From Ceraceosorus guamensis (Eukaryota; Basidiomycota; Exobasidiomycetes; Ceraceosorales; Ceraceosoraceae): a stretch of DNA of 64,000 bases. The DNA is taken from positions 186,001 to 250,000 of the forward strand of contig NW_020290016.1 in the NCBI RefSeq assembly GCF_003144195.1. The letters are read 5' to 3'. Of this stretch, positions 12,971 to 56,200 are shown piece by piece. The first letter of the stretch is position 1. Each line of letters opens with the position of its first letter. The notes beneath the pieces were generated by a model. That model had not been told where the DNA came from. It searched no databases and saw only the letters and a list, made by a program, of their open reading frames with translations. Both the position numbers and the translations under genes were made by a program.

Positions 12971-15970
<3,000 letters not shown>

Positions 15971-37060: not shown

Positions 37061-37247
37061 GTCTTTTGACAACACACTCACTAAAGCACTGCGCAAGCAT
37101 CTCTCAGCGATCTTCACAAATCACTCAGCTCATAGCTCATCTACTACCACTAGCACTCGACTGTCTACTGTTCATCAGAAACACTCGAAAGCTCCCTCTC
37201 AACGATAAACTTATCGCACATTCAAGCACAACGCAACAGAAGTCAAA

Positions 37248-38894
37248 ATGGCCAAGTTCATTTCCTTTTCCCTTCTGGCTGTCGCCATCGGCATGGTTGC
37301 TGCTGCGCCGTCCGCCATCAAGCAAGTCAGCGACACTGACGGTGTCGACCTCAAGAACGTCGGCATCTTTGCCGACGTACTCAAGCGCGACCCTCACTAC
37401 GGCGGTAGCGTCACTCAGATCAACGACGACGATCTCGTCGATGCCAAGGGCCTCAGGATCCTCGCCGATGTCCTCAAGCGCGAGCCAAACCTTCCCTCGG
37501 TCAAGCAAATCAACGACGACGACCTCGTCGACGCTAAGGGCCTCAAGATCCTCGCCGATGTCCTCAAGCGTGACCCTACCTACGGCGGTCGTGTCACCCA
37601 GATCAATGATGATGACCTCGTCGACGCCAAGGGCCTCAAGATCCTTGCCGACATTCTCAAGCGCGACCCTCACTGGGGTGGCAGCGTCACTCAGATCAAC
37701 GATGACGATCTTGTCGATGCCAAGGGTCTGGGCATCTTTGCCGACATTCTTAAGCGTGAGCCTCACCGTCACCGTCACCGCAAGCAAAAGGGTGTTACCC
37801 AGATCAACGACGATGACCTTGTCGACGCCAAGGGTCTCACCGTGGGCCTCGACATCCTGAAGCGCAACCTCCCAAGCGTCAAGCAAGTCAATGACAACGA
37901 CCTGGTCGATGCCAAGGGACTGCTCGTCGGCCTCGATGTTCTCAAGCGCGAGCCAAACCTCCCCAAGGTCAAGCAGGTGAACGACAACGACGGTGTCGAT
38001 CTCAAGGATGTACTGGTGGGTCTCGATGTGCTCAAGCGCGAGCCCAACCTTCCCAAGGTCAAGCAGGTCAACGACAACGACCTCGTCGATCTCAAGGATG
38101 TTCTCGTCGGTCTCGACGTGCTCAAGCGTGACCCTCACTCCGGCCGCATCACTCAAGTCAACGACGATGATCTCGTGGATGCCAAGGGCTTGACTGTGCT
38201 TGCCGACATTCTGCGCCGCTCTGGTTACGAGGTGTACAAGAACGAGGAGAGCCAGATCACGCGCCGCTCCGACGACGATGGCCTCTTCTACCGCCGTGAC
38301 CGTGGTGACGAGCGATGCATGTGTGTGAAGAAGACGACCTGCGGCAGCTCTGGCCCTGCTCCTGCGCCTCAGCCAAAACCCAGCACCAAGCCTCACTCTT
38401 ACAAGGCTCAGCCCACTCCCGTCACCCACACCCACACTCGTCACCACACCCACCGTCCCACCACCACCTCGACCAAGACGAAGAGCTGGACTAAGACGCG
38501 CACTCACAACCAAGCACCTACGCCCACTCACACCGCTGCGCATCACAAGAGCCCCAAGTGCCCCTCTGGATGGGGATCTGTCACTCAAGTCAACGACAAC
38601 GACCTCATCGACTTGAAGGACGTCAGTGTCGTGATCAGCATCCTCGGCGACGACGACAAGTTCACCAAGGCAGAGACTGCTCCCGCCAAGGACGCCAAGT
38701 CTCACTGCCCTGCTGGCCGTCATTGCTGCGCCAAGTCGGTCAAGCAGATCAACGACAACGACTTGATCGATCTCAAGGGCACCAGCATCAACATCGACTT
38801 GCTCAGCGGTCTTGGTGACACCCTCCTTAGCAAGGATGACAACAAGGGCGGACTCCTCGGCCACGGAGGCTTGCTCGGAACTGGACTTTTGTAG
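37248..38894 (+). CDS. Secreted Kex2-type tandem-repeat precursor (repellent-like)
   Basis: One uninterrupted frame of 548 residues. It begins with a signal peptide (MAKFISFSLLAVAIGMVAAA). Residues 21-324 are ten repeats of 26-36 residues, each with the core Q[IV]xDxD[LG]VDxK and ending LKR (last one LRR), the dibasic site cut by the Golgi protease Kex2; repeats then start with DP, EP or NL. Repeat six carries an HRHRHR insert. The tail has further dibasic sites, about seven cysteines, a His/Thr/Pro-rich stretch, and two more copies of the core without KR. Processing would release about ten nearly identical acidic peptides. The design matches fungal Kex2-processed repeat proteins, best known from the smut repellent Rep1, whose peptides coat aerial hyphae; pheromone or cyclic-peptide precursors share the layout but have shorter units. 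Function is inference. Confidence 0.92.
   Translation: MAKFISFSLLAVAIGMVAAAPSAIKQVSDTDGVDLKNVGIFADVLKRDPHYGGSVTQINDDDLVDAKGLRILADVLKREPNLPSVKQINDDDLVDAKGLKILADVLKRDPTYGGRVTQINDDDLVDAKGLKILADILKRDPHWGGSVTQINDDDLVDAKGLGIFADILKREPHRHRHRKQKGVTQINDDDLVDAKGLTVGLDILKRNLPSVKQVNDNDLVDAKGLLVGLDVLKREPNLPKVKQVNDNDGVDLKDVLVGLDVLKREPNLPKVKQVNDNDLVDLKDVLVGLDVLKRDPHSGRITQVNDDDLVDAKGLTVLADILRRSGYEVYKNEESQITRRSDDDGLFYRRDRGDERCMCVKKTTCGSSGPAPAPQPKPSTKPHSYKAQPTPVTHTHTRHHTHRPTTTSTKTKSWTKTRTHNQAPTPTHTAAHHKSPKCPSGWGSVTQVNDNDLIDLKDVSVVISILGDDDKFTKAETAPAKDAKSHCPAGRHCCAKSVKQINDNDLIDLKGTSINIDLLSGLGDTLLSKDDNKGGLLGHGGLLGTGLL
37311..38219 (+). repeat. Ten in-frame tandem coding repeats of 78-108 bp
   Basis: Unit residue spans are 22-47, 48-78, 79-108, 109-139, 140-170, 171-206, 207-234, 235-264, 265-294 and 295-324. 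Units 2, 4 and 5 form one subtype (DPxxGGxVTQ), units 3, 8 and 9 another (EPNLPxVKQ), so the array grew by duplication of mixed pairs. Confidence 0.93.
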
Positions 38895-39486
38895 TCGACT
38901 CGCACTGCAGTCGCCTCTGATGACGAAATGCCTCCTCACAATCGAGCCGACGCTGCCGCAAGCCTAGTCGCTCAGCGCCGCGGTTACCGATCAGTCAGAA
39001 GCTTTCACGAGTCTCATAAATTTCCAGGTTCCAACATTGTCCCTTGTCACCGTCATCAGCACGCCTTCTCCTCGGACACAATGCGTCGTTCGCTTGCCCC
39101 TCTGATGCGCTTCGAGTCTTGATTGCACATCGAACCGATCTTGCCATTCCCTGTCCTGTTCGCTATCCCGAACTATTCCCCATGATCGTTCTGCTTCCGT
39201 CGCGCTTCCATATTCCGCTACTGTTCCGTCGAGCCCATCGAGCCTATATCATACACATCTGAGAGTCCCACACCCACAACTGCCTGTCAATACAAAGAGC
39301 CACTTTCCCTCCTATCTTTGCTACGAAGTGTGAGCCAATTCTTAAGGCGCATGGCATGACGAGCAAGAATGGCTCGTGCGAGCGAGGCAGTCAGAGTCTT
39401 CGCTTTGCATCGTTATGTTTGGGAGGTGCGGGAGTGTCCTTGACAAATATCTATTGACGGTCGCGCTCCTCTCGGCATGCATAAGA
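38895..39486. other. Region between convergent genes
   Basis: No gene seen; 3' ends of the repeat-precursor and monooxygenase transcripts must lie here. Confidence 0.5.
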
Positions 39487-42576: not shown

Positions 42577-42668
42577 GCGTTTGTGGTGTAGTGGTAACAT
42601 GCCTGCCTTCCATTATTTGCCCTGAGGCGAGGAAGCATGCGCTCCGGGTTCGATTCCCGGCGGACGCA
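42577..42668 (+). tRNA. tRNA-Gly (anticodon UCC) with a 21-nt intron
   Basis: Acceptor stem GCGTTTG pairs with CGGACGC, followed by discriminator A. The D arm (GTG...CAT), T arm (CCGGG TTCGATT CCCGG) and a 4-nt variable loop are present. The anticodon loop reads CTTCCA then, after the intron 42614-42634, A; anticodon TCC is at 42610-42612. The intron sits one base 3' of the anticodon, the canonical site. Mature length is 71 nt. The anticodon stem CCTGC/GCATG has one mismatched pair (C28-T42). Confidence 0.93.
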
Positions 42669-48565: not shown

Positions 48566-51500
48566 ATGTCGAGAATGAAGACGTCGCGGGTGCGGCCCCA
48601 ACCTGCTTCATCTTCTTCGGATGGCAACACCACCTCCTCCAAACCTTCGACGATTCATCTGAAGACTGGGCCAGCGGGCTACACTCTCCCTCAGCGTCCT
48701 TCCGACAGCACTGTGGCCAACGCGAAGCTGCGCAACGACGGGGCCAGAGGCGGAAGGCACACGCTCTCTTCGGATACGCCTTTACCTGCTGTTGGCAAAC
48801 CACCTGGCGCGCCATACTGGTGGGTGCCGCCAGAAGCTCAGGCGTCCCATGGCAATTCGCACTCACACTCAAATGGGAATGGTATCAAGGCCACCAAGAA
48901 GGGCCCTCTGACACCCTTCAATGGGGCGGAGCATGAGTCGAAAAAGGCGATTGGCAAGGTCTCTAAGCGCCTTCAAGCTGAATACACGCCGCGGCCTCCA
49001 CCGCAAGCAAGACCGGAACATCTCGGCATGCCAATGCCCGTCACACCTTTGGAGGGCCACGTCTCGCCCCTTCGTCCGCTCGAAGCGCCAGTCATCCTCG
49101 ACGTCCTCAATGTGCCGCCGGCGGCATCCATGCGAGAGCTGAGAAGGTCCATTTGCAGAGCTTCCAGGGAATTGCAAAGAGGCCCGCCTTACTTGCCGCT
49201 GCACATCACCAAGCCCCCCAAAGCGAGCACGGCGCGCCTGCTGCTATCCGACGAGGGCACAGCGATGCGATGGCTCGGCATCTTTTCGGGGTCCAACTCT
49301 CCCTTGAGTAAGGTGATGGTGAGGGATAATAGGCTGGCATTCCAAGTTAGCGCAAGACCACCCGAGACGAATGCTTGGCTGGCTCTCGCGTCTCCGATCG
49401 ATGATGATGACTACGTCGGGGACGCAGAGGTGGATTTGCCCCCGGACCTGCCGTTTAGCGGGCTGACCTGCGGTGCATGGGACGACAAGAGCCAATTCTG
49501 TCCGGCATGGAAAGCGAAAGATCGGGTGAGTCTTGCATTCAGCTAGACGTCACTCTGCTCGTGGGGTGCATTCGTTGACGAGCACGCTTCCGTCTCCCCA
49601 CACCCATAGGAGAATGGCTCGGGGGCTGTACTGCTTATCGATGAGGCGCGGATGCACCTGCACGTGGATCAAGGCATCATTCAGATCGATCTGCGCAATA
49701 TTAAGCGTTCCATGATCTGCGGCACACACTTGTACTTGGAGCTACGCTGGACTCCGGCTTTCATACTACCAAACGACCCGGTCCGCGCACTCACGGGATG
49801 GGACGAGTACTCCAAATATGACGATGAAGATGACGCCGCAGGCCCGCCAGAGTATCAGAGGATGCCGTTTTTCGATCAGAGGCACGGCCTGGTTGCACCT
49901 TATGCCCACGTCATTTGCCTCAAAGCGCTGCGCCCTCGCCAAATGATTCACAGCTTCATCGCATCTGTGCGGCCCCGACTAGCGCAGCCGGCAAGCTTGT
50001 CGTCCGTCGCCACGGGACCCCTCGAGCATTTTACCGAGAGCACACTGAGAAAATTGAGGGAGCTTTACACCAAACTTAGCTTCGACGTGGCTTTCCAGTT
50101 GGAACGCATTGTTCGTGATGGGCTCATCCTGCCTCTGGAAGCGCTTAGCCTTGCGCCGCAGCTTACAGCGCTCGATAAACGCGCCTCGATGCAGGATGTG
50201 GTGGATGGGCCCAAAAGAGCGGCAGCGATATTGGAAAACTTTTCCGCGCGACTCATTCGCAACAAGAGCCCCGTCAACGAAGCCGCGCAGCCTCGTCAGG
50301 CCTACAAGCGGTTGTTGCCCGCCAAGGTCAAAGATCTGGCCGAAGAGCTGGAAAAGGCCCCTCTGCCCCAAATCGATTCCTCAGCGCAATTTCGGATTCA
50401 CAGCGTTCGACTTATGCCTTCTGGCGCCATGTCTCTATCTGGCCCGACCCCGGATGCGGGCAATCGGATCGTGCGACAATTTGTAGGATGCGATGTGCAT
50501 TTTCTTCGTCTTCAGATGGTGGATGAAGGGGCTTCCACGCGTCTTCGCATGCGAATCGAAGGCGTCAATTCGGACGCGCTCAAATGGATCTTCCGAAACG
50601 CGCTGGAAAAGGGACTGGATGTGGCGGGGAGGAGTTGGCGATATTTGGCCTTCAGCAATAGCTCGCTCAAGGAAGGTACTTGCTGGATGGTCCATCGCTT
50701 CTCGTACGACAGCAAAAAGGTCACGGCGGATAGCATTCGCAACAATATCGGCGACTTGGCCTTTATCAGATGCCCCGCTCGATACGCTGCTCGGTGAGTG
50801 TGGACCCAGCTCGGACATGTACCTGAGTTGCATCGCGGCTCACCGAGTGCGTCCGCCGCAACACAGTATGGGCCAAGCGTTCACGTCGACAATGTTCACG
50901 ATTCCAGTGAAGAGATCCAACGTGGTCCTTATAGATGATATCGAGCGCAAAGGGCACTGCTTCACTGATGGAGTTGGGACCATCTCATCCGATTTAGCCG
51001 AGCAGATCAGAGGCAAGATCATCAGCGCTCGGGGCGGGCGACGCAGCCAGTACTCGCCCGCGAGCGTCTTTCAAATTCGTCTCGGAGGTGCAAAAGGTAT
51101 GGTCACTCTAGACACAGAACTCCCTCCCGGCCATGTCCGCCTGCGACCTAGCATGGTCAAATTTGAGAAGTCAGCCTCTCAAGCCGACGATGAGCACGTC
51201 TATCTCGAAATAGCCAACGCGCCCGATGGGCCTCTGCCAATGTTTCTGAATAGACCCATGGTCATGATGCTTGAAACGCTGGGCGTGCCTAAAGATCGCT
51301 TCATGGAGCTGCTCAGCGAGGCTGTCAGCCACTTGCGCTACTCTGCCACCAACCTCACCTTGACTGCTCAGGTGTACAGACTGTACAATGCTCATCCACC
51401 AGGAGGCGCTGCAGCTTTGTTTGATGCTTTGCGGCGTATCGGCATTGACACGCTTGACGGAGAGAAAGTCCCCTTCTTGTACGATGCTCATCGCGCTTTC

Positions 51501-53253
51501 CAGGCCTTTGTAACGCGACACATGAAAGTGAGTGATGATTTCGATGCGGCAGTGGTCCCTCCAGACGCTCAAGCAAGTGTAGTCCGTTCACCCTCACAGT
51601 ACCGCACTCGCATACCCGTGTTGGAGGGATGCTACACACTCTATGGGGTCGCTGACGAGACGGGCTGGTTGGAAGAAGGGCAAGTCTATGCAAGCGTAGA
51701 AGTCTTTGACGGACCTCGCGATGGCATCGTGCGCCCCCGGAACATTGTCTTGCGCGGAAAATGCTTGCTGGGTCGATCGCCTATGCTGCATCCCGGAGAC
51801 GTGCAGTATGCGGAAGCGGTGTTGCCGCCTCGAGGGAGCAAGCTGAATGCTCTTCGGAATTGCATCGTCTTTTCTACCAAGGGTAAACGTGATCTGCCGT
51901 CTAAATTGTCGGGCGGGGATCTGGATGGAGGTGTGTACAGCTGGCGCCTCGAAAGAGAACAGCATCTGTTTGGTACTGACCGATGTGGATCGAATGCTAT
52001 CGCAGATCTGTTCAACGTCATTCAACATCCCTCGCTGCTTACAGTCAAGACTCAGGAACCGGCCAAGTATCCCCGCGTTGTACCTCGCAATCTCGATAGG
52101 GAGTGCACCGTAGCAGGTGAGCAGATTGGCCGTGATCAGCCACACGTGCTCAGCGCAGCAACAAGCTGACATGGTCCGCTCGCCAGACATGATCGAGTTT
52201 TTCGTCGACTTCTTGTTCTCGGACAGGCTGGGCTTGGTCGCCACCCGACACTTGATATTAGCAGACGCATCACCTTATGGGGTCTTCGATAGAGACTGCG
52301 TGAAGCTGGCCCACATGCATAGCACAGCAGTGGACTTTCCCAAAACTGGTATTCCGGTCGATACGAAGGATTGTCCACCCGTGCCACGCTTGCGACCTGA
52401 CTTTATGCAAGCAGAATTCCGAGTCGAGTGGGCACCTGCAGCCATGCGCTCGGAGCCTCGCGAACGATTCAACTTTTACGCATCTGGAAAGGCCTTGGGA
52501 CACTTATACAGGGCGCTAGACAAGCCCATTGTCGATGGACCTCCTGTTCTCCTCACCTCTGCTCACGAGCCCATCAGCACCCCTGGCATGTCGCGCTCGA
52601 CCAGCCCAGGCGGCGACGACTCAAGCAAAGCCAAAGAGGCTCCACAAGATGACTGGAACAGTCAATTGCGCAAGTACTTGGATCCCTTTCACTCTGCAGT
52701 GCAGGTACGCGCACACCTTCCCTACGTCCGTCGCATCATCGCGGAGTACTACCGCTCCGTCGATCTGATCTCCGTGGAGTGCTCGCCAAGCGGTAGAGAC
52801 GGCCCACTTTCCGAGGCGGAAATCTTTATGGGCTGCATTGCGCGAGGACCACCTGGTGTGGATGCATCGGCGGCAAGAAGCAACACGACTCTCGACACTC
52901 TGCGAGCCCGCTACTCTGGCGTTGTCGAGCGCACTATCGACGCTTTGCTCGGACCTGGTGCTAGCCGTCTGAATACGCGCGATGTCCCGCCCCCTGATGT
53001 GGCACAGATCATGGACAAAGCACAGAAGGAACGCTGGCAGCTGGTGCTCGACAAGTGCTCGGCCTTCGTCGCTGCAGCGAACGAGGTCGAAGTCAGGGAA
53101 GGCGACCATACGGGCAATGTCTGGCACAGCGTCTCGGCCACTGCTGACGGCCAGATCGTGGCCGGCAGGCGTAGCGCGGCGTGGGTGGTAGTGCCATACC
53201 TGGTGCAAGCCGCCGCGACTCTATCGATCGTGAATCGAGAGTGCGCCAGGTGA
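48566..53253 (+). CDS. RNA-dependent RNA polymerase of the RNAi pathway (QDE-1/Rdp1 family)
   Basis: Exons 48566-49525, 49610-50793, 50867-51527, 51600-51930, 52006-52116, 52166-53253 join in phase to 1444 residues. The family core is clear: RCPARYAARMGQAFTSTMFT across exons 2 and 3, NVVLIDDIERKGHCFTDGVG, SVFQIRLGGAKGMVTLD, RIPVLEGCYTLYGVADETGW, PMLHPGDVQYAEAV, and the catalytic SGGDLDGDLFNVIQ with D1042, D1044 and D1046. The third aspartate is encoded across the fourth intron (GTGTGT donor). The enzyme copies RNA into double-stranded RNA that Dicer cuts into small RNAs. The third and fourth introns are 72 and 75 nt, have no stop and keep frame if retained. The last acceptor (52165) is uncertain; one 12 nt upstream would add four residues. 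ATG 48566 is the first in frame. Confidence 0.95.
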
Positions 53254-56200
53254 AGAATAATGCCGCGTCCACCTGCTCACTCATCCAAAGCCTCCATAGA
53301 ATACCTGACAGAACAAAATATTTTAGGATCCGTCATTCGTCTTCAATACCTTTCTCGCTTTCAGGCTCTGCCGCTGCGCATCCTCCCAGGCTTGTGCGGG
53401 CGTGACCCTTCACATATCGTCCCAGACCGCAAGCTTTGCAGGCCTCCCTCTCATAGGTTCACGCATCCAAGACATCACGCCATCCCACTCTGAAACCACC
53501 GTAGACTTGGACAGCGAGTCACCGACGACTTACGTGTCACCCCTCGTAGGCTTGAGCTGTCAAGACTGCTGTCACGATGTCCGGCTGCGCACATACCCGG
53601 CAGATAGGTATCTCGCACTGCCGGCTTCACCCGTGATGCCCGCGCATCGAAACAGTCACGAGTTCAAACGCGCGAGTTGGCACATGCACGTCGCATATGC
53701 CCGACTTGACAAGTTCCGCGGCTGTTCCTCTCGCTGGGTGCTTTGGCCGGTCGGTCCAACATGATGCGACTGTGCGTGCGGCTCTTTCGAGACAGTAGTA
53801 GTAGTGTCATAGCTAGCGCTGTCATCGTGGTCCCCAATAGATTTTGGATGATGATTGTGCACGCAGTCCTGCCTTCTCACGTCTGTCGCTCTCGGACTGA
53901 CCATTGCGTGCCAGGCGTAAGCGCAGGGCTCGTCTCTATAGGGTATTTCCACTTTTGGCAGTCGCGTGTCTAAGCTGACGCAGACGATAATCTATTCGCG
54001 ACCCGAATTGAGAGTCCGCCAGGAACAATGCATGTGTGCTTGCATGCTTGGATAAAGCTAAGTGGCACTCCTCAAAGTGGGCCCATTTTTTGCCTGCTGG
54101 CCAGCAGGTGTCAGCGCGGGATCGTAATCGTCGTAGCTGCATGAATGTGAATCATGAATGCTGCGCATTCCAGCACAGAACAATACAGAAGCCTATCCTT
54201 ATCTCAGACGATCATTCACAATGAACTGGGACCACGTGCTCGTCGGCTCTTGGCAGCTGTTGACTCTCAGTGTCGAAATGCGAAGTTGACGGACGTGCTA
54301 GCTTGGACACGGGCGCATCAAAGACGGCTCAGCAATCATTGAATGTGTAGCGAGGCGCTAGATTCTTGTTCAGACGATCGGCAGATCCCTGTCCCCGCGT
54401 TGCTGTCAAGCACAGGTCGGAGCAAAACGAGCCGCGGCGAAAGCAAGTGCCGCGGGACGACACAGACTGGAGGATCCTTCATGATCCAGGTAGATTGCAC
54501 ACTACATGATCGTAGCTAGACGTGATACATCACCGGCGCACTTGAATCAAGCGTCATGGCCATAGTCGCATCAGCGGCACTCACGACCATCGATTCTGTG
54601 AAGGTCCCGCTCATCTCCGTCTCAAGGCGCATACATTCACATTATTGATTACGTCAATTCACAAAGCATGTGCCTTCTCTTGCGCAGGACGTGAGTCAAC
54701 ACGCATGCCAAAATCACTCACCCATCACAGGTGCTATAGACGGCACCGCCGCTGACCCTCGATCGCATCGGCTACCTTTGACTTGTGGGGTGATTGGGCT
54801 GTGAAGCGTTACGAATCTGAATGTATCAAAATGGATCAGAGAGGAGCTATAAAAGCAGCATGTATTTGGCGACGCGGTGGGGTCTGAAACTATGACGCAT
54901 AAATTGATTGTGTGGCTTGTTCTGCGGAAATGAACCTGATGACCGTCGTGCAGGAATGCCAGCAGACAAAATGCCGGTCCTTGCTACATCGCCCCTTCGT
55001 CCGCATCCGCCTGTACTCTGGGATCACGATCACGAACCACGAGTCTGAATGTCGCAATTCTGCATGGATCAGTCAAGGGAGCAAGCGTACTCTTGACTGG
55101 TGGTTCAGCAAAAGCATCACGGCCCTGGCACTAACCTGTGGGGCATCGAAAGAGCCTTCAAAACCGCCTGTGCGCGTCGGCTGTCCGCCTCCCGACTCGG
55201 CCCGATCGGCTTCAAGGACTTCTCAGCTCTGACCTCGTCGCAAGGACACCATTATGACGTAGTGATACGCAGATGGACTCGAGGATGATTTACACACGGC
55301 AATCATCAGTCGAGAATGGTGACCATCAGAGTCGTGACGTGCGAGCCCAAGGCACGCGTCTGCAGACTAGCCCGCGCAGCAAGTCTTTGCCATGAAATCT
55401 TTCGGTCCGCTGGACTGGAGCGATTCAGCTGTCTTGTCTCACATGGCCGATGCGAGGATGCTTGCGACTTTGCATCGCCTATACCTGAAGCAACACACTC
55501 ATGCCTTGCCGTATAACACACTCATGCCTTGCCGCATAACACACTCATGCCTTGCCGTATAACACACTCATGCCTTGCCGTATGGTGGAGCGCGGCGCGC
55601 GGGGCTTGCCAGACGTGCCATCCGGAGACCGTCGCGGCGAAGTGCCTGTCTTGGCTCGAAGCTGCACTCCAAGTCGGTACGCGTTCGAACGCAGAAGGTC
55701 ACCTGCGGTGCAGTGCTGCTGGACAACCTCACTCACTGACTCACTCACGATTGTGGCCACCCTCGCTTCCTAGACAGACTACTCGGCCAAAGGGCCAATT
55801 CGGAAAAAGGTGCAGGTGAACCGGCGAAAAGGAGACATGGAATCGCGAATCGTGATCGAATCTTCACGCTTTTGGAAAGTCGCAGTTCGACGCCGGGGGC
55901 TGCAGCGTCCCTGTATCAGCGCATTCAGCAGCAGCAGTAGTGTGTGTACCACGTCAAAGACGACGCTAGCACGCGCGAAACAGCGCTAGTGTCAGAGTCG
56001 CGCATGCAGTTTGTTCTCCCGAGGCTAATGCGTGGGTAGGTAGGTAGTATTCGTTTAACGTGAGTAGCTGTACGGTCAGGATCAAAGAAGAGTCACAATC
56101 AACGTTCGTAAGAGTCGTGAGTCGTGAGTGGTGAGTCACTCTTTGTGTTCCGCGAGTCGTGATCGGGTCTGTTGCTCTTCTGTAAGTGTGGACCAATCGC

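Follow-up and report, generated by a model that had tools for sequence, protein, structure and literature searches.

What kind of product is made from a gene that strings ten related segments one after the other, each closed by a pair of basic residues, behind what looks like a secretion signal? This question is raised by P0001, an open reading frame (ORF) of the basidiomycete Ceraceosorus guamensis located in the 64-kb window analysed here (the whole stretch of DNA from position 186,001 to 250,000 of contig NW_020290016.1). A first-pass annotation had described it as a secreted repeat precursor cut by a Kex2-type protease and, the cutting being predicted, this description is well supported by the anatomy of the protein and by the selection acting on its units. 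The reading favoured here, with a probability of roughly 0.55, is that P0001 is a secreted Kex2-processed repeat protein (KEP) with a mode of action like that of Rep1, the repellent precursor of Ustilago maydis, and that it most likely serves a structural purpose on the surface of the hyphae or in their wall. The gene and its N-terminus are located as follows.

37248..38894, + strand: repeat-precursor ORF P0001, single exon, intact, 548 aa (ATG at 37248 to TAG at 38894)
37248..37304, + strand: signal-peptide-like N-terminus, residues 1-19, MAKFISFSLLAVAIGMVAA (hydropathy; putative cut before Ala20-Pro21)

A signal peptide, as claimed in the first-pass annotation, is suggested by hydropathy, since the three highest 19-residue windows of P0001 start at residues 1, 2 and 4; the sequence presents Lys3, hydrophobic residues 4-17 and small residues at the presumed cut. 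A proline at +1 blocks signal-peptide cleavage, which is why cleavage would be expected before Ala20-Pro21 rather than one residue further on. When the ORFs of the window are scored for coding by codon usage, P0001 also comes first (106.0), followed by a segment of the CDC48 AAA ATPase gene (104.5), which was part of the training set for this score. This gene (two ORF segments, 13099-15967, + strand) served as codon-usage reference: codons ending in C make up 0.77 in P0001 vs 0.78 in CDC48, and AAG encodes 51 of 52 lysines in the former vs 23 of 27 in the latter. A codon bias equal to that of CDC48 suggests that the product is abundant or strongly expressed. An antisense open frame of 600 codons (37137-38939, - strand) spans the whole repeat gene and, as its coding score of 63.4 lies under the 106.0 of the sense frame, it probably results just from the repeats and the codon bias. 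A tblastn search for a second copy of P0001 in the window gave four matches, none of them meaningful (best E 2.0).

The window, whose long exons and GC content of about 56% might fit a relative of the smuts, also contains an RNA-dependent RNA polymerase gene (PF05183; three ORF segments, 49610-53250, + strand), so an RNAi pathway may be present in the fungus. A glycosyltransferase with a DXD motif (PF04488; 43679-45685, + strand) matches a single PDB entry, an initiation-specific alpha-1,6-mannosyltransferase (9n3s, E 2.3e-21). Together with CDC48 and the polymerase, it indicates eukaryotic, very probably fungal, DNA. There is also a tRNA gene of 92 bases (42577-42668, + strand) that was found by Rfam and missed by ARAGORN with its bacterial setting, perhaps because of an intron. 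A 23-base tandem repeat is present in four near-perfect copies at 55492-55583 (97% matches).

The ten tandem units of P0001 follow the N-terminus directly.

37305..37388, + strand: unit 1, divergent, APSAIKQVSDTDGVDLKNVGIFADVL-KR (repeat alignment)
37389..37481, + strand: unit 2, starts with Asp-Pro, ends in KR (repeat dissection)
37482..37571, + strand: unit 3, starts with Glu-Pro-Asn-Leu-Pro-Ser, ends in KR (repeat dissection)
37572..37664, + strand: unit 4, starts with Asp-Pro, ends in KR (repeat dissection)
37665..37757, + strand: unit 5, starts with Asp-Pro, ends in KR (repeat dissection)
37758..37865, + strand: unit 6, starts with Glu-Pro, contains an HRHRHRKQKG stretch, the sole positively charged unit (sequence, charge)
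37866..37949, + strand: unit 7, NLPSVK straight after KR, the sole internal unit without [DE]P (repeat alignment)
37950..38039, + strand: unit 8, starts with Glu-Pro, ends in KR (repeat dissection)
38040..38129, + strand: unit 9, starts with Glu-Pro, ends in KR (repeat dissection)
38130..38219, + strand: unit 10, starts with Asp-Pro, ends in RR (repeat dissection)

The number of repeats given in the first-pass annotation stands, as do their dibasic ends (nine KR and one RR, at residues 47, 78, 108, 139, 170, 206, 234, 264, 294 and 324) and the HRHRHR insertion, which lies in unit 6. Their length, put at 26-36 residues, has to be corrected to 28-36 aa with the dibasic pair or 26-34 aa without it, unit 1 being counted from the presumed signal-peptide cut before residue 20. 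The core Q[IV]NDxDLVDxK, said to be strongly conserved, fits eight of the ten units in its strict form, with deviations in unit 1 (QVSDTDGVDLK) and unit 8 (QVNDNDGVDLK). All 12 core copies of the protein, i.e. the ten units plus two copies in the tail, align without gaps over 24 residues, and Q3, D6, D8, D11, K13 and L22 are invariant in the 12. The dibasic KR/RR at core positions 23-24 is kept in each of the ten tandem units, with an Arg codon that varies between CGC and CGT. In the mature part of the protein [KR]R occurs 12 times, vs a mean of 3.9 in shuffled sequences, and only 2 of 10,000 shuffles reach 12.

Comparison of the units at the codon level gives an idea of their history. In four neighbouring pairs chosen as independent (2/3, 4/5, 6/7 and 8/9), 35.3 synonymous differences are found over 67.7 sites (52%) vs 14.7 nonsynonymous differences over 220.3 sites (7%; Fisher p 3e-15), and the means over all 45 unit pairs are pS 0.56 and pN 0.21. 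Given this large excess of synonymous change, the repeats would seem to be of some age, with a peptide sequence held by purifying selection. For units 1 and 10, taken as a pair, such selection is not significant (pS 0.53, pN 0.36, Fisher p 0.26).

P0001 is a KEP by the testable part of the sequence criteria of Le Marquer et al. (2019; PMC6339444), with a putative signal peptide judged by hydropathy. These criteria ask for at least four fragments bounded by KR/RR, at least three of them alike; P0001 has 12 such fragments of 8-120 aa, ten of which count as alike with BLOSUM62 local scores of 45 or more, a measure that differs from the FIMO procedure of these authors. Repeats are also required to make up at least 15% of the protein, and units 1-10 cover residues 20-324 of 548; there is no transmembrane segment by hydropathy, used here instead of TMHMM (the best 19-residue window beyond residue 25 is 0.80). 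The six frames of the window contain 90 ORFs that start with ATG and encode 100 aa or more; of these, P0001 alone passes a KEP-like test, i.e. has several similar fragments bounded by [KR]R. Fungi have KEPs in large numbers (one survey gives 7878, from 1345 of 1461 strains), and their functions are described as largely unknown (PMC9769878). Judged by its sequence, P0001 is a further member of this large known class, and what is new is the presence of [DE]P after KR in a ten-plus-one layout.

Searches of sequence databases added little to this assignment. Pfam (E up to 10) returned five matches for P0001, all under the curated cut-offs and either situated in the tail or covering short stretches of the repeats, and none for the 12 units. 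NCBIfam gave one insignificant match (SurE, E 0.63), and a search of the PDB by sequence gave no significant one. P0001 and the unit alignment (A1) produced 17, 15, 23 and 76 pattern matches in viral and prokaryote collections, none confirmed by tblastn; as these collections hold no fungi, this says nothing on fungal relatives. Six strings from the core, for which the first-pass annotation had raised the possibility of an undescribed class, had no occurrence in the PMC article texts searched. Two candidate relationships were rejected. One is a resemblance of the unit to the start of SurE nucleotidases (5ksq; profile E 0.085, the lowest of four PDB profile matches; region 37389-38219, + strand), but no unit matches any Pfam model and this resemblance was taken as probably due to chance. 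The D-x-D-x-x-D spacing in the core is reminiscent of an EF-hand or dockerin-like calcium loop, but such loops need an Asp at the position where the core has its invariant Gln, and Pfam shows nothing of the kind.

Unit 10 is followed by a tail in which further cut sites and two further copies of the core can be distinguished.

38220..38297, + strand: two short non-core pieces of 16 and 10 aa, each ending in RR, SGYEVYKNEESQITRR and SDDDGLFYRR (cut-site dissection)
38298..38543, + strand: tail linker, residues 351-432, three Cys and then a basic stretch rich in Pro/Thr/His/Lys (charge, composition)
38580..38651, + strand: uncut core T1, at residue 445, GD in place of KR, CPSGWGS before it (core alignment)
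38739..38810, + strand: uncut core T2, at residue 498, SG in place of KR, CPAGRHCCAKS before it (core alignment)

The tail has 224 residues, and its last piece would have 198 aa if both extra RR sites (residues 339-340 and 349-350), which are absent from the first-pass annotation, were cut. It is rich in Cys and His as previously stated (7 Cys and 13 His in residues 341-548), and the last 198 residues are basic (+7.8 at pH 7), a charge that resides mostly in residues 371-432 (rich in Pro, Thr, His and Lys/Arg; net +9). The two core copies in the tail had been called degenerate and KR-less; KR is indeed missing, but over their first 13 positions, which keep Q3, D6, D8, D11 and K13, they are not very degenerate. 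Between T1 and T2, core positions 1-13 are conserved (pS 0.63, pN 0.14, p 0.025) but positions 14-24 are not (pS 0.31, pN 0.50), so the front half of the core may be the part that has been retained in the tail, although few sites are involved. Comparisons of the core between units and tail are not significant (p 0.21 and 0.26).

Likewise absent from the first-pass annotation is a dipeptide, Asp-Pro or Glu-Pro, found directly after KR in eight of the nine internal units, vs a mean of 0.2 in shuffled sequences (0 of 10,000 shuffles reach 8). In all, XP follows eight of the 12 dibasic sites, and again none of 10,000 shuffles has as many. The eight copies are not eight independent events, because the units are related by descent; the four Asp-Pro copies have identical codons (GACCCT) and the four Glu-Pro copies three different Pro codons. 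An XP that directly follows a Kex2 site constitutes the STE13 signature, which was proposed as a mark of peptide hormones, including in basidiomycetes, and reported as absent from Rep1 (Le Marquer et al., PMC6339444). Pleurotus peptides are described as consistent with STE13-type trimming, and removal of the signature from a Coprinopsis KEP in Pichia was reported (Vogt et al., PMC9769878). In P0001, AP stands at the presumed start of unit 1, and unit 7 (NLPSVK) differs from unit 3 (EPNLPSVK) by exactly the missing dipeptide, as if the latter were dispensable to the product. Nevertheless, the Pro of [DE]P may have a structural place in the folded unit instead of marking a trimming site, since it is retained as Cys-Pro before both tail cores where there is no KR. 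The Cys-Pro of T1 is in the same register as the dipeptide in units 2 and 5 (alignment A1 takes in only the Cys of T2, not that of T1).

After the predicted removal of KR and XP, units 2-10 would be 26-32 residues long, and unit 1 would have 25 residues counted from residue 21, or 24 with Ala20 as its first residue and AP removed. The calculated [M+H]+ values of trimmed forms are, for instance, 2806.556 for unit 3, 2748.514 for unit 7 and 2875.614 for unit 9. The earlier claim that the peptides are acidic holds for nine of the ten (-2.1 to -4.0 at pH 7), the exception being unit 6 (+1.2). All ten differ from each other, as would suit a blend of structural peptides more than a ligand for a receptor.

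These features bear on the possibility, which we consider rather unlikely, that P0001 encodes a peptide signal, i.e. that it is an alpha-pheromone-like KEP of a basidiomycete whose STE13-trimmed peptides would be sensed by a receptor. The distribution of [DE]P over the internal units, the AP of unit 1 and the loss of precisely EP from unit 7 speak in its favour, as do the proposed hormone function of STE13-marked KEPs in basidiomycetes and the trimming-consistent Pleurotus peptides in the sources cited above. As in the precursors of ascomycete alpha pheromones, where STE13-type dipeptides such as EA and DA are described, KR is followed by a dipeptide of this type (PMC6339444). However, alpha pheromones are given as 9-24 aa (PMC6339444), whereas trimmed units 2-10 lie outside this range and unit 1 at its upper edge (24-25), the units vary, no MF_alpha model is among the Pfam matches of P0001 (E up to 10), and a signal has no need of a 224-residue tail with uncut cores. 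The STE13-marked KEPs of Pleurotus and Coprinopsis are similar to P0001 in having XP or XA after the dibasic site, but their cores are short in the examples given, e.g. SGVAADW (PMC9769878), compared with about 24-32 aa here, and the dipeptide in P0001 is single, not a run.

It is doubtful that P0001 is a repeat protein of the wall or surface that stays uncut or is only partly cut, its KR/RR pairs being incidental or marking flexible joints. Two core copies do persist without KR, and the Pro before the core is kept where KR is absent. A full-length single-sequence AlphaFold model, discarded as fold evidence for its mean pLDDT of 38, would also agree with this in placing a strand and then a helix in several units. 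On the other hand, the dibasic pair has been retained in ten of ten tandem units and [KR]R is three times as frequent as the shuffle mean.

A model of unit 3 computed by AlphaFold with a 12-row alignment has a helix at residues 12-29 (mean pLDDT 73, pTM 0.27), and Foldseek found 0 matches for this one-unit model. Over the whole core of units 1-10, the hydrophobic moment does not exceed that of permuted columns, either for a helix (100 degrees, p 0.30) or for a strand (160 degrees, p 0.34). Among the sub-ranges tried, columns 12-22 at 100 degrees come out best for the units (p 0.055) and, for the tail copies, columns 9-22 at 160 degrees (p 0.044), each uncorrected for 32 tests. An amyloid strand in the free peptides is neither supported nor excluded by these results, but a modelled helix instead of a strand counts against a likeness to Rep1. 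The C-terminal helix of the predicted unit would suit a precursor of membrane-active peptides with the layout of Ece1/candidalysin, and the likeness of the Ece1 and Rep1 precursor layouts has been noted in print; with nine acidic peptides out of ten and a helical moment not above chance over the whole core, such a function is very improbable. Still harder to credit is a RiPP precursor of the dikaritin type with cyclised cores, for although dikaritin precursors also combine a signal peptide with Kex2 repeats (PMC9769878 among sources), Tyr occurs in only two of the ten units, and a scan of 41 of the window's 67 ORFs with 150 aa or more found no DUF3328 match.

The favoured comparison is with Rep1 (UMAG_03924), a protein of 652 aa with 12 mostly tandem repeats according to a review table (PMC4617103), which is processed to ten peptides of 35-53 aa plus one of 228 aa, these products forming amyloid-like fibrils (PMC4617103). 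Both proteins comprise ten imperfect repeats cut by Kex2 and one long terminal piece, the cut sites being predicted in P0001. The terminal piece has 228 aa in Rep1, as reported, vs 224 or 198 aa here, and the 12 repeats counted in that review are matched in number by 12 core copies. The differences are that the units of P0001 are shorter than the 35-53 aa given for Rep1 (28-36 aa with the basic pair, 26-34 without), that the whole core has no amphipathic moment above chance, that [DE]P follows KR, and that the terminal piece carries two core copies, while that of Rep1 is, per one paper, without similarity to its repeats. The likeness to Rep1 put forward in the first-pass annotation thus holds for the layout and fails for the dipeptide, which counts against it as a proposed hormone mark reported absent from Rep1. 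The two precursors were compared by descriptions of their layout, and what emerges is a likeness of plan, not a shown kinship. A loose tBLASTn rule (coverage of 60% or more, identity above 20%) led to reports of Rep1 orthologues in Tilletia (PMC9172201). A table covering Ustilaginomycetes gives such orthologues, beside a second repellent, Rep4, in five further gene columns, the listed counterparts of UMAG_03924 including UHOR_05948, sr14829 and BCV70DRAFT_80316 (PMC7409079). It would thus be no surprise if a related fungus had one too. Hum3 and Rsp1 of U. maydis are likewise described as secreted tandem repeats with Kex2 sites (PMC4617103), and the Hum3 units, at 31-36 aa, are similar in size to those of P0001 (PMC4617103). 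However, Hum3 has a hydrophobin domain after its repeats, for which no Pfam match (E up to 10) was found in P0001, and the units of Rsp1 are given as hydrophilic and 18 or 21 aa long (PMC4617103).

What favours a Rep1-like function is the combination of the ten-plus-one layout, purifying selection, the kept KR/RR, the XP pattern and codon bias. Repellent-like assembly of the peptides is plausible, and the following sequence of events can be proposed. P0001 would enter the secretory pathway and lose its signal peptide, a Kex2-type protease would cut after the ten KR/RR sites that flank the cores, and a Kex1-type carboxypeptidase would remove the basic pair. A dipeptidyl aminopeptidase of the STE13 type would probably then remove the N-terminal [DE]P, or AP in unit 1. 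The output would be some ten free peptides, each approximately 24-32 residues long, and one terminal fragment of about 198-224 residues, containing the two uncut cores and a Cys-bearing basic segment rich in Pro/Thr/His. The terminal fragment would be the wall-bound part, with assembly taking place at the surface, and acidic peptides could bind its basic segment through opposite charge. That its two uncut cores would go further and seed the assembly of the trimmed peptides, nine acidic and one (unit 6) basic, is an unlikely extension of this scheme; the first-pass annotation had already raised the hypothesis that the tail copies might nucleate assembly.

Were such templating to be true, STE13 trimming would time or trigger assembly, a use of this signature outside signalling, and the uncut tail copies provide a concrete test case for templated assembly. 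More generally, P0001 unites features that are kept apart in one survey, a ten-plus-one layout as in a surface repellent and an STE13 mark as proposed for hormones, and the true mature N-termini of its peptides would tell whether this mark sorts hormones from structural peptides.
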